Shown here: piece by piece, positions 8,746-21,251 of the stretch
Numbering within the stretch: position 1 is the stretch's first letter
How the letters are laid out: each line of letters starts with the position of its first letter
From: Methanothrix sp.
GTDB lineage: Archaea; Halobacteriota; Methanosarcinia; Methanotrichales; Methanotrichaceae
Direction: 5' to 3'
DNA length: 37,893 bases
Assembly: GCA_025361645.1 (NCBI GenBank)
Contig: JANYKI010000030.1
Span: forward strand, 1-37,893
Position numbers and translations under genes: made by a program
The notes under the pieces: model-generated
Told to the model about the DNA's origin: nothing
Seen by the model: the letters and a program-made list of their open reading frames with translations, nothing else
The model's database searches: none

Positions 8746-9153
8746 TCACAGCATATCCGGCGGGCATACTATCATTTTGATATATCCCTGCAAAGAGAGG
8801 ACTTCTCTGGCCTCCGTCGGCTTCCAGTTCTCGTCAACCAACGGCTCCCATGAGGCGCCCTTCTTGCACCATTTCATCAATTCTTCCATGGTACAAAATC
8901 CCGATGACATTCCATTGGACTTGTCCTCAAAAAAACCGAAGAATTTCTTGGTAATCGGCCCGTACTCCGCCATATACCAGTGCATATTCTTTTCGTTAAA
9001 TAGGTGCAGATAGATGCGCTCCACGCCTACGCAATAATGATATTCGGAAAGATTGGGCAGTCGGGTCAGATCGCTGGGTGCTAAATCGGTGAATTTCTTT
9101 GTCAAATGCATAGCCTCCGTGGCTAAAGCACATCTTTCGGGTTGCCTCCTCAT
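8746..9153 (-). CDS. DUF2958-like protein
   Basis: Reads right to left, 135 residues. The pattern LPNLSEYHYCVGVERIYLHLF, then WYMAEYGP, FFGFFED, then GFCTMEELMKW resembles the DUF2958 family seen in plasmids and integrative elements (Leu-Pro-x-Leu..., Trp-Tyr-x-x-Glu-Tyr, Phe-Phe-Gly, Gly-x-x-x-x-x-Glu-Leu). The function of that family is unknown. The first 15 residues look unlike protein and ATG at 9108 (preceded by GGAGG, spacing only 2) is a possible true start. It converges on the gene before it and diverges from the TOPRIM gene. Assignment to the family is by pattern and moderate. Confidence 0.6.
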   Translation of the reverse strand: MRRQPERCALATEAMHLTKKFTDLAPSDLTRLPNLSEYHYCVGVERIYLHLFNEKNMHWYMAEYGPITKKFFGFFEDKSNGMSSGFCTMEELMKWCKKGASWEPLVDENWKPTEAREVLSLQGYIKMIVCPPDML

Positions 9154-9254
9154 TAAGTATCCGCTCCATGACCAAAAAGCTTCTGCACCATCCCGCCCCC
9201 TCAGGAATCATCGTTTTTTAGTTTCGGATGGTATACTTGCGGAAACGCTCTAAT

Positions 9255-9265
9255 CTATATATTTT
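9255..9265 (+). promoter_or_regulatory. TATA box for the TOPRIM gene
   Basis: CTATATATTTT centred about 28 bases before ATG 9288, which places the transcript start at or just before the start codon (leaderless or nearly so). This supports ATG 9288 rather than ATG 9228. Confidence 0.55.
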
Positions 9266-9287
9266 GGCATCAATAGGAAATACAGAT

Positions 9288-10103
9288 ATGACCGAACCAT
9301 TTGTAGATACTGAAACGGATCGAACCAAGTCCCGGTGGTTGGCAGAGGTATATCGTAATTTTGTAAGGGACATCGGCAGGTCGAGGACCACGCTTCGAGC
9401 CATGTTTTACTATGCGATGCAAAGGAAGGAGACAGATTATCCTATTTGTGGATGGTTCGTAGGCGAGATTCGGATCACACGGCCTTACCATGAAAGCGAT
9501 GGTGAGAAGCTTTCCAAGTGGATGAGCAAAGCAAGAAAGCTGGGTTTCATTCCTGCGGACGCCATTCTGGATGAGATTCCGGGAGAGCACCTGTTTTTGT
9601 CGGAAGGTTCTCTGAGAAGATCCAATTCCATGGAAGTTTGGCTGAATAAGTCCGCGCTAAATCCATTAATAGGTCCTGTCTGTGAGAAACACCGCGTAAA
9701 CCTCGTCTCTGTCAGTGGTAGTGCCTCGGAGGAGGCCATCGAAGCCCTGTACCGGCGCTGCGACTCTCCGACCGTCATTCTCTGTCTCTCCGACCTGAGT
9801 TCTGGCAGTGCTTTCTTTTGCCAGGATCTGGCGACGACGATTGCAAAATTAAAGCCACCGGGATGCAATGCCGATATCAGAGTAAAATGCCTTGGTCTCA
9901 AGCCCGATCAGGTTATGGAGCTTAAGATTCCCCTGGTCTCGGGAAGTAATGATTCGAAAGAGAACCAAGAAAGGTTCAAGAGATATCTCAAAGCGCACTC
10001 TCTTGATCCAAGAAAGATGGCGGAACTCGATGCATTGGAGGTCTATTATCCGGGAGGCATCGTAGGCTTCCTGGACAAATTCCTTTCCGAATACGTCGAA
10101 TGA
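9288..10103 (+). CDS. TOPRIM-domain protein, Spo11/TopoVI-A-like, with degenerate metal site
   Basis: 271 residues. The N-terminal half (TTLRAMFYYAMQ, then KLSKWMSKARKLGFIPADAI) follows the helical pattern of the winged-helix region in Spo11/TopoVI-A-like proteins of mobile elements. The C-terminal half is TOPRIM-like: conserved Glu 116 in MEVWLNKSAL, a GSASEE turn, and the strand TVILCLSDLSSGSAF where the family has D-x-D-P-S-G. Here the first Asp (169) is kept but the second is Ser 171, so metal-dependent cleavage may be lost. The family occurs in phages and mobile islands. A TATA box 28 bases upstream supports ATG 9288; ATG 9228 is in frame. The next gene downstream encodes a tandem-HTH protein, and copy A of a repeated promoter element begins 47 bases after the stop. 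Confidence 0.7.
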   Translation: MTEPFVDTETDRTKSRWLAEVYRNFVRDIGRSRTTLRAMFYYAMQRKETDYPICGWFVGEIRITRPYHESDGEKLSKWMSKARKLGFIPADAILDEIPGEHLFLSEGSLRRSNSMEVWLNKSALNPLIGPVCEKHRVNLVSVSGSASEEAIEALYRRCDSPTVILCLSDLSSGSAFFCQDLATTIAKLKPPGCNADIRVKCLGLKPDQVMELKIPLVSGSNDSKENQERFKRYLKAHSLDPRKMAELDALEVYYPGGIVGFLDKFLSEYVE

Positions 10104-10149
10104 TAGCCATTTCTACCTTCTTCTTATCCGTGCTAAATACATGATACGC

Positions 10150-10290
10150 GAAAAAGCATTTATACTTCCAAGCGCTGTAAACCATACCTCAATGTAAAGG
10201 TTTACGCCGCATTGTGGAGGGGGTTCTGTCATCATCCACCATACGATTGAGGGCCGGCAAGAGAATACTGGCCTTCTATCCTCAATCACA
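10150..10290 (+). repeat. Repeat element copy A: promoter, inverted repeat, terminal hairpin
   Basis: First of four related elements. In order: AAAAAGC, TATA box TTTATACTT (10159-10167), inverted repeat arms TGTAAACC (10176-10183) and GGTTTAC (10199-10205), a conserved CATCATCC (10230-10237), and a closing hairpin GATTGAGG (10245-10252) / CCTCAATC (10280-10287) with an inner GCCGG/CTGGC pairing. By archaeal spacing the transcript would start within the inverted repeat, so the element could specify a short RNA of about 100 bases upstream of the tandem-HTH gene. Confidence 0.7.
10245..10287 (+). terminator. Closing hairpin of element A
   Basis: Perfect 8-bp outer stem GATTGAGG/CCTCAATC and inner stem GCCGG/CTGGC, about 40 bases before the HTH gene. 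It could end a short RNA or act as an attenuator for that gene. Confidence 0.5.
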
Positions 10291-10326
10291 GCCAACCATC
10301 CAAAGATGCTTCCAGCCAAGGCGAAT

Positions 10327-10833
10327 ATGACAAAGTGCATACTGAAAACCGGTCTAGATTCAGTAAACCCACCTGTAACCCAACCGACTGATAAGACTAT
10401 TCACAACCTTGAAATCTATCTTTCAAATAGCAGCCATTTTAGATCCTGCATCTATGATCGCCGAGAGGTTCAATGTATAGCCGGTCGTTTTGGCTTATCT
10501 CCGGAGCGAATTCGCTGTGAGCTTAGAAGGCTCGGCTATCAATTGACCAATAACGGTCATGGCCGAATGATCTGGAAGAGCAAAGAAGGCGAACGCATGA
10601 ATCATAACAAAAGGATCGCCTCCTTGGAAGATTATATTGCCAAATGCGAAGCCAGACAGCTACAGTTTTTTGACAGATCCGAAATTGGCAGGATCGCGAA
10701 AATAAATGGAGTAGACCGCGACTGCGTTAGAACTGCACTGCGACGCAGAGGTTATAAATTGAGCAAAAACACCCACAACATCGTTGTTTGGATCAAGGAA
10801 CGAAAAAGCATTTATACTCCCGAGCTAATGTAA
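10327..10833 (+). CDS. Protein of two tandem HTH-like domains
   Basis: 168 residues made of two copies of one ~62-residue unit (about 27-88 and 98-161). Aligned positions include LE-x-Y, DR-x-E, IA, G, R-x-x-LRR-x-GY and a closing W. The DR-x-E...IA...LRR pattern looks like a helix-turn-helix domain that reads DNA, as in small resolvase/regulator HTH units, but no exact family is recognised. Start ATG 10327 is preceded by AAGGCG; ATG 10306 is in frame. The gene sits between copies A and B of a repeated promoter with an inverted repeat, and its last codons form the upstream edge of copy B. This makes it a candidate to bind these inverted repeats; that is inference. Confidence 0.6.
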   Translation: MTKCILKTGLDSVNPPVTQPTDKTIHNLEIYLSNSSHFRSCIYDRREVQCIAGRFGLSPERIRCELRRLGYQLTNNGHGRMIWKSKEGERMNHNKRIASLEDYIAKCEARQLQFFDRSEIGRIAKINGVDRDCVRTALRRRGYKLSKNTHNIVVWIKERKSIYTPELM

Positions 10834-10947
10834 ACTATGCCCAATGGCATGGGTTTACATAGCCGCTGCGTAGCGGTGCGATTTGGCCATCATCCGCCCG
10901 AAATTTGGGGCCAGTAAGGGATTACCGGCCCCCTCTATCCTCTTTTC
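10800..10947 (+). repeat. Repeat element copy B: promoter, long hairpin, terminator
   Basis: Closest to copy A and overlapping the 3' end of the HTH gene. TATA box TTTATACTC is at 10811-10819. The inverted repeat is the strongest of the set: ATGTAAAC and ATGCC pair with GGCAT and GTTTACAT around a CAAT loop (10828-10860), a 13-bp stem with one small internal loop. A second hairpin CCGCT-GCGT-AGCGG follows at 10863-10876, then CATCATCC (10888-10895), then a terminator-like hairpin and pyrimidine tail. No ORF lies in the predicted transcript, so a noncoding RNA of about 110 bases is likely. Confidence 0.72.
10907..10947 (+). terminator. Terminator hairpin of element B
   Basis: GGGGCC-A-GTAA / TTAC-C-GGCCCC with a GGGA loop (10907-10932), ten base pairs with one A-C mismatch, followed by CCTCTATCCTCTTTTC. 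The same CTCTATC-type pyrimidine tail follows the hairpin of copy A. Confidence 0.65.
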
Positions 10948-11083
10948 ACCTGCATCTTGTGATCGTTGCAGCGCGCAAAATAGCATAAGGCCCAGCCGTT
11001 CTCTGTAACGATAACTGCAAAAAGGTGCACCCCAGAACAAGCTAGGGGTTATTCATTCAAAAAATATATATTTGGGCTGCGGC

Positions 11084-11242
11084 CTAGGCAGACTTTTTGT
11101 TTCCCAAAGCAACAATAGCTATGCCAGCGCCTGCAACAGCTGCATCCCCAATAACCATCATCATAGTATTGCCGCCTGAAGTGAATATCGCGGCGATCCC
11201 TATAACAAACAATACTCCACCGATCATGCCACTTGTTTGCAT
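11084..11242 (-). CDS. Small glycine-rich two-helix membrane protein
   Basis: 52 residues, no family recognised. Two hydrophobic helices (about 6-21, GMIGGVLFVIGIAAIF, and 27-46, MMVIGDAAVAGAGIAIVALG) joined by a TSGGNT turn and ended by a basic NKKSA tail. Start ATG 11242 has a strong Shine-Dalgarno TGGAGGG; the longer frame upstream is only the translated promoter repeat. The promoter is copy C of the repeat element, so this is the one copy that directly drives a protein gene. It lies downstream of the symporter in the same direction. Confidence 0.7.
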   Translation of the reverse strand: MQTSGMIGGVLFVIGIAAIFTSGGNTMMMVIGDAAVAGAGIAIVALGNKKSA

Positions 11243-11264
11243 TTCTTTTCCCTCCACATTATTA

Positions 11265-11336
11265 TGAACAATTGTAAGCCCATGTGATTGGGTCGGGTTT
11301 ACATATACATGGAAGTATAAATGCTTTATCGTTGAA
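11265..11336 (-). repeat. Repeat element copy C: promoter of the small membrane protein
   Basis: On the minus strand: AAAGC, TATA box TTTATACTT (11313-11321) and the inverted repeat ATGTAAACCC (11295-11304) with GGGCTTACA (11273-11281). It leads after about 30 bases to the Shine-Dalgarno and ATG 11242. It lacks the closing hairpin of copies A, B and D. Confidence 0.7.
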
Positions 11337-11347
11337 TGCATAGTTGT

Positions 11348-12703
11348 CTAAACCACGCTCTTGCATTCCTGCTCCGTATACTGTTTCTCCAACCAGCTTA
11401 CCCCGAATAGGAATGCTGCGGAGACCGCCATGCCAAGCAGAGGATACGTCTGGCCCAGGAAGATTGCGGTTACTCCGCCTCCCAGCAGCGCAGCCAGCGC
11501 ACCGGAAGGCGTAAGGCCCAGCCGCTCTCGGTAAAATCCGGCAATAACCGGTAAGAGCAGACCACTGGTAAAGACGGTATAGGCGATAAGCAGCGTCTTG
11601 ATGATGCTGGGCAAGGAAACAGCCAATGCCAAAGCCAAGAGCCCTATGATTAACACAAAAAGCCTTGACAATGCCATCAGCTTCTCTTCACTTGTTGCCG
11701 GTCTTGCCTTTCTGTAAATATCCAGAGTTAAAATGGAGGTGGCCGTCATAAGGCTCGTGTCTGCTGAGGACATGAATGCAGCCAGGAGAGCTGCGGCCAC
11801 CAGGCCTTCCATTGCGGGCGAGAGAAGCCCCGTCAGGAGCACGGGAATGGCCAGCTCAGGTGATGCGCCAGGGTAAAGCGACCGGGCGAAGATGCCCAGG
11901 GATGTGATGAGGAAGGCCAGGGGAATGAGGATGACGGCTGCGATCGCCGCTGATATCTTTGCTTCTCTGGGGGTATGGGCAGAGAGAAGACGAGAATACA
12001 TATCCGGCCCGACCAGGTATGCCGAGCCGACAACCAGCAGCATGGACAACACGTTCCATCCGCCCATATCAGCCGAAGTGGGAAAACTCTGGCTGAAGAT
12101 CAAGCCGGGTCCTGCAACCTCCAGGGCTTTGGAAAACAGGACAATCATTCCCACTAATATTATCATGAGCTGTACCAGGTCGGTCCTTATCACCGAGCTC
12201 TGCCCTCCGTGAGCTGTGTAGAGCACGAAGACGGCCGTACATGCTGCCATGAATAAAGTCTCGTTTCCTCCAAATACGGCAACCAGCACCTTGCCGCAGG
12301 CCACAATCTGCACGGCAATTACTCCCACCCAGGAGATGATAATGAGGGCGGAGGCGACAAACCTCACCCTTTCCCCATAAAATGATCCTACCAAATCGGG
12401 CAGAGTGCTGCATCCGCTAGCTCTTACTCTCTCGGCAAAAAAAGTCGCCAGCACCAGCAGGCCAGCCGTACCGGAGAGCATCCACCACGCGCCAGGCAGG
12501 CCTTTGCTGAAGCCCAGGCCCGCCATGCCCAGAGTTGCTGAAGCGCCAATGATAGTGGCACAGAAAGTGCCTGTAAGAAGAACCAGTTTTATGCTCCGCC
12601 CCGCCAGGTGGAAATCCTCCATTCCTTTCAGGCGGTGTCCCCAAGCGCCGATGACAAGCATCGCCAGCAGATAGATTACTATTATGACGGCAGCCGGATC
12701 CAT
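11348..12703 (-). CDS. Sodium/solute symporter (SSS family)
   Basis: Sodium-coupled uptake carrier of the membrane, 451 residues with about 12-13 hydrophobic helices over its whole length, as usual for the family. Family signatures include the N-terminal YLLAMLVIGAWGHRLKGMEDF-like helix with the FHLAGRS cytoplasmic loop, GASATLGMAGLGFSKG in helix 2, and SSADTSLMTATSILTLD (about 309-325), whose Ser/Asp positions match the Na2 site. The solute cannot be told; if the host is an acetate-using Methanothrix, acetate is one idea, but that is inference. Start ATG 12703 has GAGG nine bases before it; the in-frame extension to 13015 is untranslated promoter repeat. It has its own TATA box at 12757-12764. 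Confidence 0.88.
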   Translation of the reverse strand: MDPAAVIIVIYLLAMLVIGAWGHRLKGMEDFHLAGRSIKLVLLTGTFCATIIGASATLGMAGLGFSKGLPGAWWMLSGTAGLLVLATFFAERVRASGCSTLPDLVGSFYGERVRFVASALIIISWVGVIAVQIVACGKVLVAVFGGNETLFMAACTAVFVLYTAHGGQSSVIRTDLVQLMIILVGMIVLFSKALEVAGPGLIFSQSFPTSADMGGWNVLSMLLVVGSAYLVGPDMYSRLLSAHTPREAKISAAIAAVILIPLAFLITSLGIFARSLYPGASPELAIPVLLTGLLSPAMEGLVAAALLAAFMSSADTSLMTATSILTLDIYRKARPATSEEKLMALSRLFVLIIGLLALALAVSLPSIIKTLLIAYTVFTSGLLLPVIAGFYRERLGLTPSGALAALLGGGVTAIFLGQTYPLLGMAVSAAFLFGVSWLEKQYTEQECKSVV

Positions 12704-12722
12704 AAACCATGCCTCACAAAAT

Positions 12723-12764
12723 TGTAAACCATTTTTCGCGGATAAGGTTGACAAGCCTATAAAT
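12723..12764 (-). promoter_or_regulatory. Symporter promoter with TGTAAACC half-site
   Basis: TATA box ATTTATAG (12757-12764, minus strand) places the transcript start near 12733. Immediately after it lies GGTTTACA on the minus strand (12723-12730), the same octamer that forms the arms of the four repeat elements. This could tie symporter control to the same binding factor. Confidence 0.5.
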
Positions 12765-12807
12765 CTCTTTCTGTAGCTGTAACTGCAATGCTGATTGATA
12801 ATTAAAA

Positions 12808-12956
12808 TTGATAAGAGAAAATAGAGGGCCAGCACCTTTTTTTTGGCTGGCTCTCTATTGTCGGGCCGGATAGTGGATAAACCCCACCGCAATTTCGGTG
12901 TAAACCCATGGCGTTGGGCAAGGTTTACATAAGCTCGGAAGTATAAGTATTTTTGC
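12808..12956 (-). repeat. Repeat element copy D: promoter, inverted repeat, terminal hairpin
   Basis: Minus-strand copy upstream of the symporter. TATA box ACTTATACTT is at about 12941-12950, arms TGTAAACC (12922-12929) and GGGTTTACA (12899-12907). After about 45 bases comes a hairpin GAGAGCCAGC / GCTGGCCCTC around a poly-A loop (12824-12855), followed by CTCTATTTTCTCTT. It would yield a noncoding RNA of about 100 bases that ends before the separate symporter promoter. Confidence 0.7.
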
Positions 12957-13268
12957 CTGGGAACCAGTCTTATGCCCTTACCTTGATTTGTCTTTCCATA
13001 CCGCTTAGGGCGCATCGAAGGATATCGGCCTGACTCGTCTCAGAGTTCAACGCCTCGTCAAAATGTAAAGCTTCTAAGTAATAATTGAGTGAATGATATA
13101 TTATTCAGATATACTTAGAGCAAGATTATAAATTTTTCTTCGCGAAGAATCAATTTGAGGATATTATTAATCAGCTGCATCTGGCATGTTCCATCTGCTT
13201 GCCTCGCCGCCGTTTGACTAAGAAGTTCCAAAAAATTACCACGATAAAATAGAGATAAATATAATGCA

Positions 13269-13290
13269 GATCCTGGCACGAGCCAGGATC
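13269..13290 (-). terminator. Terminator after the 36-residue membrane protein
   Basis: GATCCTGGC / GCCAGGATC, nine perfect base pairs with a 4-base loop, 14 bases after the stop of the small gene and followed on the minus strand by TGCATTATATTTATC. Confidence 0.65.
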
Positions 13291-13304
13291 CGAAAGAGCC
13301 AGGT

Positions 13305-13415
13305 TTATCTAACGCCTGCTCTGCTATCAGACCACCTGTTGAACACAGTTGGCAGTATGAATGTACAAAGACCGAATAATACTATGGCGATCAACTGGCT
13401 CGTGATATCTGGCAT
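13305..13415 (-). CDS. Single-helix small membrane protein, 36 residues
   Basis: Too short for standard gene finding, but well signposted. ATG 13415 has a full Shine-Dalgarno GGAGGTGA seven bases upstream, and a nine-bp terminator follows the stop. The product MPDITSQLIAIVLFGLCTFI continues to PTVFNRWSDSRAGVR: one hydrophobic helix (about 7-24) and a basic tail. A TATA-like GTTTATG lies near 13486. It points the same way as the sodium/solute symporter about 600 bases on. Small accessory peptides of symporters exist, but no homology is claimed. Confidence 0.5.
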   Translation of the reverse strand: MPDITSQLIAIVLFGLCTFILPTVFNRWSDSRAGVR

Positions 13416-13636
13416 CTATTTTTCACCTCCATTCATGACATTGGATACGCTAGACCTAGGCCCTCTCCTACTGCATCCCACATAAACTTTGTGCTATCTA
13501 ATCAATTCGGCTAGTTGCTATTCCTGCTAAAAATTGGATTCAGAGGGATAAAATAGGGGATGAAGGAGGTGAGATAGAGGTCAATTCCCTCAAGTATGAA
13601 TCCTGCCATAATGAATTCTTTTTAGATACTCTGCCA

Positions 13637-13780
13637 TTAAGTCGGACTCAATAGTATCGATATGATGATAGCAGCCAGCCAAAATCCTACCCACAATGGG
13701 TACACACCCAACTCCTGATGACCAAGTTTCATTTTCTTATTCCTCCCAATTTGGTAATTTTTCCTTTTTTCCAAATTCAT
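13637..13780 (-). CDS. Small single-helix membrane protein, 47 residues
   Basis: The C-terminal part (VYPLWVGFWLAAIIISILLS) is a hydrophobic helix ending right at the C-terminus (LSPT), so the protein is tail-anchored. Two starts are possible: ATG 13780, overlapping the stop of the preceding small frame (ATGA), or ATG 13732, which gives 31 residues and has the better Shine-Dalgarno (GGGAGG, spacing about 9). No family recognised. It points toward the 36-residue membrane protein and symporter. Confidence 0.45.
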   Translation of the reverse strand: MNLEKRKNYQIGRNKKMKLGHQELGVYPLWVGFWLAAIIISILLSPT

Positions 13781-13872
13781 CCTTTTTCAAAGTATTTATC
13801 TTTTTCCAAGCGGTATTTGCAGATACTTTTTTTAAGCAGCAGCTCCTTGCTTTCATCGGCAGGACGTTCCAC
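13777..13872 (-). CDS. Possible 31-residue charged peptide
   Basis: GTG start at 13872 with GGAG five bases before it, product rich in Lys/Glu (ADESKELLLKK..., KYRLEKDKYFEKG), stop overlapping the ATG of the next small frame. The coupling and a TATA-like TTTATATC on the minus strand near 13925-13932 speak for it; the short length against it. Alternative frames are also open here. Confidence 0.25.
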   Translation of the reverse strand: MERPADESKELLLKKSICKYRLEKDKYFEKG

Positions 13873-13918
13873 AATAACTCCGTCTTAGAAATGACACATA
13901 AACGTCCGTAATAAGTAT

Positions 13919-13932
13919 TGATATAAAGGAAC
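13919..13932 (+). promoter_or_regulatory. Divergent TATA region
   Basis: TTGATATAAAGG reads as a TATA box on both strands, about 40-50 bases before the plus-strand gene at 13968 and about 55 before the small minus-strand frame at 13872. Confidence 0.4.
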
Positions 13933-13967
13933 TCATAAGGATGGAAAAATGAGGTGCCGCGAGAAAA

Positions 13968-14426
13968 ATGCCTGGCCCAAAATACACAAAGATAGAGATA
14001 ACCCCTGAAGCCTTTCTGGCTCTTGAATCGGAAACTATTCTTCAGAGCAAGACCCTGAAGAGACTAGCGTCCGAGCTAATACTGAATGGGGTTTCTGAAG
14101 CGTCCCTGGATTTTGCTCAAAGAGCCTTGGCCGCCAACATGGCCAGCCAAAAGTCAAGCGAAAAACTGGCAAAAGTGATCAAGGATATCGGTACTTCTGA
14201 GATAAAATTTGATGCTGCTTTTTTAGAGATTATTGAAAATATGATAAAAGAGAAGGAATATCTGGAAACAATGCTATACGTTGCCCAGCATACGGCTTCC
14301 ATGCAGCGCGATGAACTTCACAGAGTACTGACGATCTGTGAATATCATAATCTCTCCACTGCACACAAAGCCAATATTATTAAGAATTTAAATGATATCG
14401 AATCGGGCAATTGCAAATTCCAATAA
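13968..14426 (+). CDS. All-helical protein of unknown function
   Basis: 152 residues, no family recognised. After a short start (MPGPKYTKIEITPEAFLALE) the protein is predicted to be wholly alpha-helical, with amphipathic segments at about 25-60, 60-80, 84-105 and 108-145 and no membrane helix or cysteine motif apart from two isolated Cys. GAGGTG lies about 14 bases before ATG 13968. It has its own promoter and a clear terminator just after the stop, so it is a single-gene unit. Its composition (many Lys, Glu, Ile, Asn) is more AT-rich than the housekeeping genes nearby. Confidence 0.7.
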   Translation: MPGPKYTKIEITPEAFLALESETILQSKTLKRLASELILNGVSEASLDFAQRALAANMASQKSSEKLAKVIKDIGTSEIKFDAAFLEIIENMIKEKEYLETMLYVAQHTASMQRDELHRVLTICEYHNLSTAHKANIIKNLNDIESGNCKFQ

Positions 14427-14466: not shown

Positions 14467-14643
14467 TCATTTAATCATTTCAACAGCGGCAATTACTACT
14501 ACCAAAATTGCAGCTGCTATCATTACAAGGTTTCTAACCTCGATGTGCATTACTTGTTCTCTCATATGCTTGGGTCTATGAGTGACTACCTCATGGATCC
14601 AAACCTCATGTTGCAGCATTGCGTCGCTCTTTACAACTGTCAT
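14467..14643 (-). CDS. Tail-anchored small membrane protein, 58 residues
   Basis: Not found by length cut-offs but strongly supported: ATG 14643 is preceded by a near-ideal AAAGGAGGT, spacing 7. The N-terminal 38 residues are soluble and rich in His, Val and charged residues (HEVWIHEVVTHRPKHMREQ), followed by one hydrophobic helix (about 39-54, LVMIAAAILVVVIAAV) and EMIK at the end. It lies 53 bases after the YkgJ-type gene in the same direction and may share its transcript, which itself follows the mtr operon. No family recognised. Confidence 0.6.
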   Translation of the reverse strand: MTVVKSDAMLQHEVWIHEVVTHRPKHMREQVMHIEVRNLVMIAAAILVVVIAAVEMIK

Positions 14644-15388: not shown

Positions 15389-16324
15389 TTAAAGCGTCTT
15401 CTTATAGGGATGGTCGTCGGTCAGAACCTTCAGCCCGAGCTCCTCAGCCGACTCTGCCTTGAAGATGTCCACCATGGCGGCAGCCGGGAAGATCATGGGT
15501 GCGTTCTCGATGGGGCCGTACAGATAGAAGTCTGCGCCCAAGATGCCAGCCACCAGGTTGGCCCCGATGTCCACAGGTGCAAAGGCTTCCTTGTGCTCTT
15601 TCTTCCATCTCTTCATCCAGTCCCAGGCGGAGGCTGCATTGTGGAAGCCTGCGCCCACGGGAAGGCCCAGTTGCGCCTTGACGGCGATGCATGCCCTGTA
15701 GGTAGCACCGGAGCCGTTGCCCAGAGGCATGGCCGCTACATCCAGGAGAATCCTGGTGATGCCGCACTCTTTGGCGTAATCCAGCATGCCCTTCTTGGCG
15801 CCGCCGGCAGCCTTGGTCAAGATGTTCATCTTGCCAACGGTTCCCTTCTCCATGGCATTGAAGGCTAGGACGATAGCGGCATCGAGGTCGCTGTCCTTGA
15901 CGGCCTGCAGCTCCTCTGGTGTAATGGAGGCGTTGATGGAGTTATGGATGGCCTTGTCGGCTACGCCGATCTCAGAGGCGTACTTGACGCCGAAGGCGCG
16001 CACCGACGGTGCAGAGGAATCGATGAGGAATGGGTAATCGGATATGCCCACAAACCAGTCGATCTCCTTCTTCATGGCCTCATCACTCTCTGCAACAATC
16101 TGGTTCATACAGGAGTTGCCGGTGATGTCGCTCATCTCAACCTGTTTATTCCAGAGCCTCTCGGCGGCTGCCGCGTCAAATACTCCGTGATCCGGATCGG
16201 ATACGATCTTGTGCCTGGCGTAGAACATGGTGCCTATGCAGCATGTGGGGTACTCTCCAGGCTGGCCCCCAACCTTGAACTTGCCAAACTCGAAGACCTC
16301 TTGCTTCCTATCAAACTTAAACAC
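15389..16324 (-). CDS. mtrH: Tetrahydromethanopterin S-methyltransferase subunit H
   Basis: Soluble subunit that moves the methyl group from methyl-tetrahydro(sarcina)pterin to the cobamide of MtrA. The 311 residues have the MtrH start (MFKFDRKQEVFEFGKFKVGGQPGEYPTCC, in two parts) and the TIM-barrel pterin-binding motifs such as GNSCMNQIVAES and LLDVAAMPLGNGSGAT. GTG 16324 follows the mtrG stop directly (TAAGTG). It is the last gene of the mtrEDCBAFGH operon. Confidence 0.96.
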   Translation of the reverse strand: MFKFDRKQEVFEFGKFKVGGQPGEYPTCCIGTMFYARHKIVSDPDHGVFDAAAAERLWNKQVEMSDITGNSCMNQIVAESDEAMKKEIDWFVGISDYPFLIDSSAPSVRAFGVKYASEIGVADKAIHNSINASITPEELQAVKDSDLDAAIVLAFNAMEKGTVGKMNILTKAAGGAKKGMLDYAKECGITRILLDVAAMPLGNGSGATYRACIAVKAQLGLPVGAGFHNAASAWDWMKRWKKEHKEAFAPVDIGANLVAGILGADFYLYGPIENAPMIFPAAAMVDIFKAESAEELGLKVLTDDHPYKKTL

Positions 16325-16570
16325 TTAAATCACCCTTGTCCAGTTACCGGCATATACGAACAGCACATATGCCAGTATAATGATCAATCCTGCGCAAACA
16401 CCGTAGGCGGTACCTAGATCCCTGCCGATAGACTTGCCTGCCCGCAGGAATTTCTCGCCTGAGTAGAACTCGATCTTCTCATCGATCTTATCCAACCTGG
16501 CCATAAGCTGGTTGAACTGTTCCGGATCGACAACCGCGACGGGTACTGTCTGTCTTCCTTCTTCAGCCAT
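16325..16570 (-). CDS. mtrG: Tetrahydromethanopterin S-methyltransferase subunit G
   Basis: Small stalk-type subunit of the Mtr complex, 81 residues: a soluble helical part (VDPEQFNQLMARLDKIDEKIEF, cited in two halves) and one C-terminal membrane helix (about 55-75, TAYGVCAGLIIILAYVLFVY). Start ATG 16570 comes three bases after the mtrF stop. Position between mtrF and mtrH is the standard order. Confidence 0.94.
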   Translation of the reverse strand: MAEEGRQTVPVAVVDPEQFNQLMARLDKIDEKIEFYSGEKFLRAGKSIGRDLGTAYGVCAGLIIILAYVLFVYAGNWTRVI

Positions 16571-16573
16571 GGC

Positions 16574-16810
16574 TCACAGCCCCCCCTTAAATATGAAGAA
16601 CGGCCCGATCATCATCAAGAGAGCGATGATGAAACCGGTGAAGAATCCCATCGAAACGGTGGAAAGAACTCCTGAGCTCATTTTCGTCTCTCTGGCCAGG
16701 AGCTGGCCCTTATACTTGATGTCCTCTACAATGTCATCGAAGTACCCTTCTTGGGTCATGATAACCGTGGGATATCCCTGGCCGTAGACAACCTCTTTCT
16801 CCTCTGCCAT
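16574..16810 (-). CDS. mtrF: Tetrahydromethanopterin S-methyltransferase subunit F
   Basis: 78 residues. It has an N-terminal soluble part (YFDDIVEDIKYKGQLLARETK) and a C-terminal membrane helix (about 53-74, MGFFTGFIIALLMMIGPFFIF). A strong AAGGAGGG precedes ATG 16810. MtrF resembles the C-terminal part of MtrA in layout and anchors the stalk of the Mtr complex. Confidence 0.94.
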   Translation of the reverse strand: MAEEKEVVYGQGYPTVIMTQEGYFDDIVEDIKYKGQLLARETKMSSGVLSTVSMGFFTGFIIALLMMIGPFFIFKGGL

Positions 16811-16812
16811 TT

Positions 16813-17550
16813 CTAGATCCCTCCTTTGGGTGCGATCCTCAGGATTAAGCCGAAGAGGATCAGGACAATGGTCATGCCTAGGGCAAGGCCTTCCATCTTT
16901 CCTGCATAAATGCCCGCCTGCAGCTTGTTGAGAAGACCGTTGACAGTCACTGCGGATTGCTGAATTCTGATCCGGTCTCTGATCTCCACAACTTCGGCTG
17001 CCAATGGCCTGGGCCCGTGGACTTCCTCTTCGTCTCCGCCCCGGTTGATCTCTATTCTCATGGGCTCGACGTCTAAGGCCCCCGGATCCTTGGAGACAAG
17101 CTCCTGGATCTTGGCCTTGATCGCGCCCATGTCCTCGGTGTCCATCATCATGACGGGCTGAACTTGCGTTTTGATCCGCTCTATGGACTCCTCGTTCAGG
17201 TTCTGGATGAAGGGAATGGCGCCCGTGGCCCCTACAATCTTTCCCTCCTTATCTATGCCGTCTTTGAGGAAGGCTTCTACAGCCTGGCCGGTGATATGCC
17301 CTTTGACCTCCATTCCCGTAATGATCAGGTATCTGATGTTGGGATTGGAGACCAGATTGGCGGTCATTTTCTCTATTCCGATGTTCTCTGTCTTGCAGGG
17401 TCCAACCAGACCGGCACCGGCAGCGAACAGCTCGGAGGCCTTGAGATGCGATCCGCAGGTACAGACGGCCACCGGGCTTTCCGGATTTCCAACTTCATAC
17501 TCGCCTGTGATCAGCGGCCAAGGATCGGTAGGCTTCTTCTTAAGTACCAT
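16813..17550 (-). CDS. mtrA: Tetrahydromethanopterin S-methyltransferase subunit A
   Basis: Carries the cobamide cofactor that accepts the methyl group and hands it to coenzyme M. The soluble domain contains the family signature GPCKTENIGIEKM (50-62) and GHITGQ with His 85, the expected cobalt ligand; the C-terminus is a single membrane helix (about 217-238, GLALGMTIVLILFGLILRI). I chose ATG 17550 (245 residues), with GGGAGG nine bases upstream, over GTG 17556. The coding region starts just inside the mtrB stop. Confidence 0.96.
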   Translation of the reverse strand: MVLKKKPTDPWPLITGEYEVGNPESPVAVCTCGSHLKASELFAAGAGLVGPCKTENIGIEKMTANLVSNPNIRYLIITGMEVKGHITGQAVEAFLKDGIDKEGKIVGATGAIPFIQNLNEESIERIKTQVQPVMMMDTEDMGAIKAKIQELVSKDPGALDVEPMRIEINRGGDEEEVHGPRPLAAEVVEIRDRIRIQQSAVTVNGLLNKLQAGIYAGKMEGLALGMTIVLILFGLILRIAPKGGI

Positions 17551-17552
17551 TC

Positions 17553-17912
17553 TCACATGCCTCCCGTATGCGTTACTGCGGCTCTTACAATCGCTACTCC
17601 TTCCGGCGTGGCGAACAGCGAGCTGATCAGGATGACAAACGCCACTACCAGGCCGATGATTAAGCCCGCCCAGATGTTGGTGTAGAGGCCGCCGATGTAA
17701 GAGGCTTTGCCTCTGTTGGCATAGGACTCCATGAGTTCGCTGTCCGGCCCCAGTTGGTTCATCATATCCTGCGCTATCCTGTCCAGCCTCTCAATCTTAG
17801 GATAGAGCGGATCGAGCGCGTACTGAACGACGTCCTCCCTCTCCTGTGAGACTGTTCCCTTGATTGGGTCAAATAGCAGACCCAATTCGGGTGATACTCT
17901 AACAACTCCCAT
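17553..17912 (-). CDS. mtrB: Tetrahydromethanopterin S-methyltransferase subunit B
   Basis: 119 residues with a soluble N-terminal part that contains DPIKGTVSQER and a single C-terminal membrane helix (about 79-100, NIWAGLIIGLVVAFVILISS). GGAGGAG precedes ATG 17912. The sequence ends with an extra stretch after the helix (ATPEGVAIVRAAVTHTGGM). It lies in the standard position between mtrC and mtrA. Confidence 0.94.
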   Translation of the reverse strand: MGVVRVSPELGLLFDPIKGTVSQEREDVVQYALDPLYPKIERLDRIAQDMMNQLGPDSELMESYANRGKASYIGGLYTNIWAGLIIGLVVAFVILISSLFATPEGVAIVRAAVTHTGGM

Positions 17913-21153: not shown

Positions 21154-21251
21154 GCGTCGATGGTCTAGTGGTTATGACTTGGGCCTTCCAGGCAGATTTT
21201 GATTCTCTGCGAAGCAAGCCTACAACCCGGGTTCGAATCCCGGTCGACGCA
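21154..21251 (+). tRNA. tRNA-Gly(TCC) with intron
   Basis: Acceptor stem GCGTCGA (21154-21160) pairs with TCGACGC (21244-21250), discriminator A 21251, no encoded CCA. Anticodon TCC is at 21187-21189. The T arm is CCGGG-TTCGAAT-CCCGG. Anticodon stem TGGGC (21180-21184) pairs with GCCTA (21218-21222), which requires removal of a 26-base intron at 21191-21216 in the canonical archaeal position 37/38. Confidence 0.93.
21191..21216 (+). other. tRNA-Gly intron
   Basis: Twenty-six bases inserted directly after the base following the anticodon (37/38), with internal pairing GGCAGA/TCTGC consistent with a bulge-helix-bulge substrate for the archaeal splicing endonuclease. Confidence 0.75.

Follow-up and report, generated by a model that had tools for sequence, protein, structure and literature searches.

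Which factor governs a promoter that recurs, each time overlaid by the same kind of inverted repeat, within 2.8 kb of a methanogen genome, and what does it control? The window analysed here is an entire 37,893 bp contig (C111) of a Methanothrix genome (G000; 2.43 Mb, 97% complete), in which the copies of the element, named A to E, lie around a gene for a sodium:solute symporter (SSF). The comparisons presented point, with an estimated probability of about 0.84, to an archaeal promoter overlapped by an operator for BirA, and to a BirA regulon that would include the SSF symporter, a hydrophobic protein of 52 amino acids (aa) and three small RNAs.

An archaeal promoter overlapped by a probable BirA operator

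The pattern of the 31 bp repeat, with two mismatches or fewer, occurs at exactly five places in the 2.43 Mb genome, namely A to E (Table 1), and the reversed pattern used as a control at none; a sixth site, with a 14 bp spacer, lies 5' of a second SSF gene copy on contig C132. A sequence-only reading of the window had described four copies, A to D. All four are real, the coordinates it gave marking the A-rich lead and the repeats themselves lying at the revised positions in Table 1, and the scatter of the core over hundreds of random sites that it had named as damaging to its case was not seen. It overlooked E, which has its own TATA box and lies immediately 5' of the SSF gene. TATA boxes and inverted repeats are indeed common to A to D, but both arms are perfect in D only (those of A, B and C are imperfect), and the motifs said to lie between the arms are shared in part: CATGGG is present in B, C and D but not in A, and the centre reads CCAAT in B and C, CCAAC in D and CTCAAT in A.

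TATA boxes of the form TTTATACTTCC, or one-mismatch variants of it, were found in all of A to D (4 against a mean of 0.41 expected; 0 of 100 shuffles reached 4), at 17-18 bp from the left arm. Archaeal transcripts usually start about 30 bp past the first base of the TATA box, and at this usual spacing the start would fall within the inverted repeat, as the earlier reading had proposed; the repeat overlaps the promoter. The arms could pair as RNA if transcription started upstream, and the repeat would then be a stem-loop in a 5' leader rather than a DNA operator. That interpretation has next to no likelihood, given that the start falls inside the repeat by TATA spacing, that 14 of the 22 operator-bearing SSF promoters considered below keep a C at arm position 4 opposite a T, which is a C-U mismatch in RNA, and that the spacer varies from 14 to 17.

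As a DNA operator, the repeats (TGT(A/C)AACC-N14..17-GGTTTACA) agree with the BirA operator consensus TTGTAAACC-[N14/15]-GGTTTACAA, for which C at the fourth arm position is described in some delta-proteobacteria (PMC545781). The half-sites are TGTAAACC/GGTTTACA with C allowed at position 4, and the spacer is 15 bp in A to E and 14 or 15 in most relatives, longer spacers being those of G024 E and the G023 small RNA copy (16) and of G005 (17). A single biotin protein ligase match is found in the G000 genome, with HTH_11, BPL and BPL_C domains; its gene lies on contig C70, directly 3' of a biotin carboxylase gene, and the protein aligned over most of its length to solved BirA entries such as 6apw and 1bia, from Staphylococcus aureus and Escherichia coli respectively. 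The proposal that one factor serves several local genes and RNAs is plausible and can be refined, the factor at the element being most likely BirA, encoded elsewhere in the genome. Sites for NrpR, MsvR, Lrp and TrmB were also considered and were dropped once the BirA consensus fitted. A regulator encoded next door was also rejected, as no helix-turn-helix (HTH) protein common to all SSF loci was seen among the 11 neighbour clusters read, which include one that looks secreted by eye (c17) and one that is weakly ParD-like (c7).

Table 1. Elements, genes and predicted RNA genes of the repeated-promoter locus, in window coordinates.
Feature	Position	Strand	Evidence
Element A, BRE (B recognition element)-like A-rich lead and TATA box	10150..10169 (TATA 10159-10169)	+	TATA match
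Element A operator, BirA-type, TGTAAACC-N15-GGTTTACG	10176..10206	+	pattern match
Small RNA gene A, body and terminator-like hairpin, start predicted inside the operator	10206..10294	+	model match 10206-10287, E 1.6e-21 (training set)
HTH-repeat-like open reading frame (ORF) between A and B, 175 aa	10306..10833	+	dN/dS 0.21 vs G015 and vs G024
Element B TATA box	10811..10821	+	TATA match
Element B operator, BirA-type, TGTAAACT-N15-GGTTTACA	10829..10859	+	pattern match
Small RNA gene B	10860..10955	+	model match 10865-10944, E 2.6e-21 (training set)
C-orf, 52-aa hydrophobic small protein gene, membrane-like by eye	11084..11242	-	relatives in G015, G024, G023, G002
Element C operator, BirA-type, TGTAAACC-N15-GGCTTACA	11273..11303	-	pattern match
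Element C TATA box	11311..11321	-	TATA match
SSF sodium:solute symporter gene (PF00474), candidate biotin transporter	11348..12703	-	PF00474 E 4.3e-36
Element E operator, BirA-type, TGTCAACC-N15-GGTTTACA, between SSF TATA box and start codon	12723..12753	-	pattern match
Element E TATA box	12758..12763	-	sequence
Small RNA gene D	12800..12898	-	model match 12813-12898, E 1.0e-23 (training set)
Element D operator, BirA-type, perfect arms, TGTAAACC-N15-GGTTTACA	12899..12929	-	pattern match
Element D TATA box	12937..12947	-	TATA match

Operator and BirA across the genus

In the comparison of 26 genomes of the genus, 23 yielded an SSF match at the cut-off of E 1e-100 and G010, G018 and G020 did not, and 21 genomes have at least 60 bp of readable sequence upstream of the 5' end of the gene. 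Left out of this count are G019 (the contig ends 3 bp upstream), G014 (a 3' fragment), a second G022 fragment and the second G000 copy, though the operator is present there; G024 is counted by its SSF-proximal site. An operator lies 5' of the SSF gene in 19 of the 21 genomes, the exceptions being G001 and G011, where the best upstream sites agree at 11 and 10 of the 16 arm positions and shuffles reach 13. Both family-level relatives read carry it as well (PFL3 15/16, Ch14 14/16), while none was seen at the bacterial SSF homologues L080-L083 (0/4; L084 left out). A degenerate form of the operator pattern has matches in 19 of the 26 genomes and its reversed control in 0 of 26. Throughout the genus, as in the two family-level relatives read, the SSF symporter promoter is the conserved home of this putative operator.

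BirA was read in 25 genomes, with HTH_11 checked by Pfam in four of the proteins and the remaining HTHs judged by eye (the G017 protein is truncated where its contig ends, though the last part of the motif can be seen). Only G001 BirA is without a visible HTH, Pfam finding no HTH_11 in it, and that of G011 retains the HTH fold (HTH_11 E 9.9e-10) but reads RAAVSSQI at the position of RAAVWKQI, which the others show either as such or in lysine-keeping variants. Among the 21 genomes with readable SSF upstream sequence, an unaltered BirA HTH is accompanied by the operator in 19 of 19 and an altered or absent one in 0 of 2 (Fisher p ~0.005, ancestry uncorrected).

A TATA-like match stands 7-20 bp 5' of the left arm in 20 of the 22 SSF operator rows (none for G025 and G006; G024 measured at D), and with G024 left out the TATA-to-operator distance at SSF promoters is either about 7-11 bp (nine rows) or 16-20 bp (ten rows). 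These classes are about one helical turn apart, so that a bound protein would occupy the same face of the DNA. Furthermore, the G024 operators A and F have both arms altered together and are fully self-complementary (CGTAAACT...AGTTTACG), a joint change of the kind that a dimer site would favour.

The same distribution bears on whether the operator belongs to some other regulator, such as the HTH-repeat protein encoded between A and B. That ORF lies between two of the elements, is under purifying selection (a nonsynonymous to synonymous rate ratio, dN/dS, of 0.21) and follows a small RNA copy in G000, G015, G024 and G023, and its G024 orthologue has weak HTH matches in Pfam, where the window ORF has none. 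Full-length relatives of it, however, occur in 4 of the 26 genomes against 19 of 26 for the operator, the consensus is the published BirA one and operator loss follows the BirA HTH. Short single-HTH relatives in many genomes (33-48% identity, 36-76 residues) leave a distant paralogue a slim chance, and control by a protein of this kind is quite improbable.

The SSF symporter and a small hydrophobic protein

The SSF protein is a PF00474 member, like PutP, PanF and SMVT, the last of which is a host biotin carrier (PMC3459881). It differs from these known transporters in scoring under the curated cut-offs of all 8 NCBIfam families matched, including the proline, pantothenate and acetate symporters, and among solved structures it is nearest in sequence to glucose and choline cotransporters. 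Biotin or a biotin precursor is its inferred substrate. The second SSF copy of the genome (C132, 33784-35169; loci L128 and L159) is 72% identical, has one in-frame TAG in the matched stretch and lies downstream of the operator with the 14 bp spacer.

Element C lies upstream of C-orf, whose 52-aa product has no Pfam match. Its G024 relative is 73% identical and lies behind a similar TATA box, and in G023 and G002 more distant relatives each form the second gene of a pair preceded by an operator-like site, with a TTTATG box 19 bp ahead of that site (distance by eye). Elsewhere in the window, 14467-14643 (-) encodes a 58-aa protein with one hydrophobic stretch (MTVVKSDAMLQHE...) and no Pfam match, relatives of which adjoin the mtr operon at loci L048, L049, L050 and L061. 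In G023 and G002 the relatives of the 58-aa protein and of C-orf are consecutive genes behind the operator-like site, and the two proteins may work together.

A putative family of small RNA genes behind three of the elements

Elements A, B and D run on into about 80 bp of common downstream sequence, a homology absent from the earlier description of the locus. The homologous bodies end in a GC-rich hairpin and a pyrimidine-rich tail, giving each unit what a small regulatory RNA gene would have by sequence: its own promoter, a conserved non-coding body and a terminator. No Rfam match to these segments was found up to E 1 in the region 9000-14000, and A, B and D apparently represent a small RNA gene family that had not been described, predicted to be transcribed from starts inside the operators.

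A covariance model was built from eight RNA bodies, excluding the operator except for its last base in the A type, and was scored on no more than 150 first-look candidates in each genome, fewer than the total available in 25 of the 26. At E <1e-8 it finds at least 12 copies in 6 of the 26 genomes, those listed being three each in G000, G015 and G024 and one each in G017, G023 and G014. Eight of the 12 were used for training and G015 A is almost the same as one of those eight, leaving G024 F, G023 and G014 as new copies from outside it. Directly 5' of the 12 lie operators that match 15-16 of the 16 arm positions in nine cases and are symmetrically altered (12/16) in two, G024 A and F; one copy, in G014, has none. 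Among the three new copies that of G023, in which TGTCAACC-N16-GGTTTACG follows a TATA box, gives the strongest independent confirmation of the proposed pairing of operator and RNA. Weaker model matches (E 3e-4 to 0.1; 18 of 30 rows) were dropped: none of the seven whose upstream sequence was read has an operator, and six others are opposite-strand matches at copies already counted.

In B and D an ATG in the right arm opens a frame (22 codons in B; at least 21 in D, from ATGGG in the operator), and the segments could on that account encode short peptides. Coding by A, B and D is nevertheless unlikely, because the homologous core falls in different reading frames in the three (compared by eye) and the B frame has a dN/dS of 1.75 between G000 and G015 (6 nonsynonymous changes to 1 synonymous); the D frame gives 0.57 on 6 changes, and G000 A reads ATG-TAA. 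Taken together, the short-peptide interpretation is highly improbable.

A second alternative takes the segments as leaders of the genes downstream, the HTH gene for A and the SSF gene for D, with the hairpin as an attenuator. A copy does lie 5' of the HTH gene in four genomes, and D lies 5' of the SSF gene in G000, G015 and G024. Against this, a separate promoter with operator E stands between D and the SSF gene, no same-direction gene is evident downstream of B or of the G017 copy, and G024 F has no HTH gene behind it, which makes leaders an unlikely account of the family as a whole.

The copies A to D look like duplicates, as the sequence-only reading had held, and its further suggestion that the cassette is mobile draws on four similar copies in 2.8 kb and, now, on RNA genes found at different loci in different species (near a TrkH gene in G017, G023 and G014; at the SSF locus in the three other genomes). 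Yet no transposase was found among the ten neighbouring ORFs scanned with Pfam, no element ends were visible by eye, and with the patterns used the genome holds no further operator copies except at the second SSF gene. Mobility is scarcely probable and that part of the suggestion is not upheld.

As a general target of the RNAs pycB is unlikely: its domain PF02436 (PYC_OADA) was found in four of the eight genomes asked (G000, G015, G001 and G011) and not in the RNA carriers G024, G023, G017 and G014, of which G024 is 99% complete and the other three are incomplete. The G024 genome retains a biotin carboxylase-like gene beside BirA despite having no PF02436 match, and the biotin-dependent partner may differ between close species.

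A model of biotin-responsive control

In the model that best accommodates these data, the element is a promoter, made up of a BRE-like lead and a TATA box, on which an operator is superimposed. The operator would serve BirA, a bifunctional protein that is both biotin protein ligase and repressor. With ample biotin, BirA carrying biotinyl-5'-AMP would dimerise on the operator, which by TATA spacing would span about -13 to +18 in A to D and in E would sit further upstream by almost a full turn of the helix, and would block initiation; when biotin is short, all five promoters would open. The regulon at this locus would comprise the SSF symporter, importing biotin or a precursor, the 52-aa hydrophobic protein and the paralogous small RNA genes A, B and D. 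As a guess, the RNAs would act by base pairing and adjust the cell to low biotin.

A more specific and tentative extension of the model is a vitamin-sparing response, in which biotin shortage makes BirA free paralogous small RNAs that pair with mRNAs for functions that are dispensable or consume biotin, in the way known for RyhB and iron, alongside induction of a new type of SSF biotin transporter and its small membrane partner; this is possible, though the odds are against it.

Several observations, drawn together here, weigh against the BirA model. On the side of the operator, G010, G018 and G020 have an HTH-bearing BirA with no match to the operator pattern and no SSF gene at the cut-off (completeness is 93% for G010, while the other two genomes are incomplete), so that BirA would have another role there or bind an altered site; these three genomes are exceptions to the joint occurrence of operator and BirA HTH. 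The G002 SSF operator (14/16), counted through its position and pattern, does not beat the top score among its own 100 shuffles; for the SSF operators of Ch14, PFL3 and G023 the margin over the respective shuffle maximum is only 1. Set against the consensus, the altered G024 operators A and F fall within the shuffle maxima of the SSF rows. At C-orf, the operator of the G024 relative is degenerate (13/16) and the G002 operator-like site carries two mismatches. One pattern match, G002:C87:990, has no TATA box and lies inside a mechanical ORF; it is probably due to chance.

On the side of the RNAs, the G014 copy has lost its operator (9/16) and its TATA box, and G024 F resembles G024 A throughout, operator included, and is not independent of it. 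Folding of A and B is no better than that of shuffles (z -1.14 and +0.27), whereas D (z -2.86, 0/200 shuffles), G024 D and G017 fold strongly (z -2.9 to -4.6). The covariation signal is modest. Shuffles matched or exceeded the number of cells changed on both sides in 14 of 500 cases, that of pairs in 167 of 500 and that of pair types in 482 of 500. Duplex energies calculated for segments A, B and D with 118 of the genome's gene starts were unselective, and the three RNA cores formed no convincing duplex with the starts of pycA, birA, pycB, SSF, C-orf or the HTH ORF (0 of 18 comparisons with a shuffle fraction <0.05; lowest 0.087, B with pycA).

Relation to known systems

Archaeal BirA sites were reportedly described by Rodionov in 2002, and BirA operators, archaeal ones included, are already known. 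The system proposed here shares with the BirA biotin regulon of group II biotin protein ligases the operator consensus, a single HTH-bearing BirA, the link between HTH and operator and control of a transport gene; it differs in its members, which here are small RNA genes, the 52-aa hydrophobic protein and the SSF symporter. None of the operators read together with their surroundings had a recognisable biotin synthesis gene beside it. Methanosarcinales are described as being without biotin synthesis genes, with bioB in 1 of 29, and BioY is credited for uptake (PMC6138646).

Small RNA genes under a nutrient-responsive regulator have precedents in RyhB (under Fur) and in sRNA154 of Methanosarcina mazei. 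Another archaeal small RNA for comparison is sRNA162 of the same species (PMC3510493). Relative to all three, the signal here would be biotin, acting via BirA, and there are several paralogues; the sequence comparison consists of the Rfam scans. Among the open-literature matches listed there was no report of BirA-controlled small RNAs or of a BirA-controlled SSF symporter, subscription papers lying largely outside that scope, and as far as those matches show, BirA-linked small RNA genes, and the symporter and small protein as regulon members, are new.

If correct, the model would add small RNA genes to the enzyme and transporter genes under the biotin repressor, and would supply an environmental signal for an archaeal small RNA family, with vitamin supply controlling a small RNA in this group. 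For Methanothrix, which is prominent among the methanogens that use acetate, it would also point to an SSF symporter as a way in for the vitamin.

Other features of the window

Two further conserved proteins are encoded near the locus. The first (9228-10103, +; DMTEPFVDTETDRTKSRW...) has no Pfam or NCBIfam match; it is encoded near the SSF locus in G000, G015, G016 and L061, and a copy also precedes small RNA F of G024. The second (13968-14426, +) has relatives near SSF in eight loci, the window included, that of L061 giving a weak ParD antitoxin-like match (E 0.00041, below cut-off). The methanogenesis genes for MtrH, MtrG, MtrA and MtrB (15389-17912, -) are separated from the G000 SSF locus by a few kb, and mtr gene clusters are also near SSF in G015, G024 and G016. 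Finally, a tRNA match at 21154-21251 (+) is 98 bases long, against 74 and 85 for the two others in the window, and possibly contains an intron.

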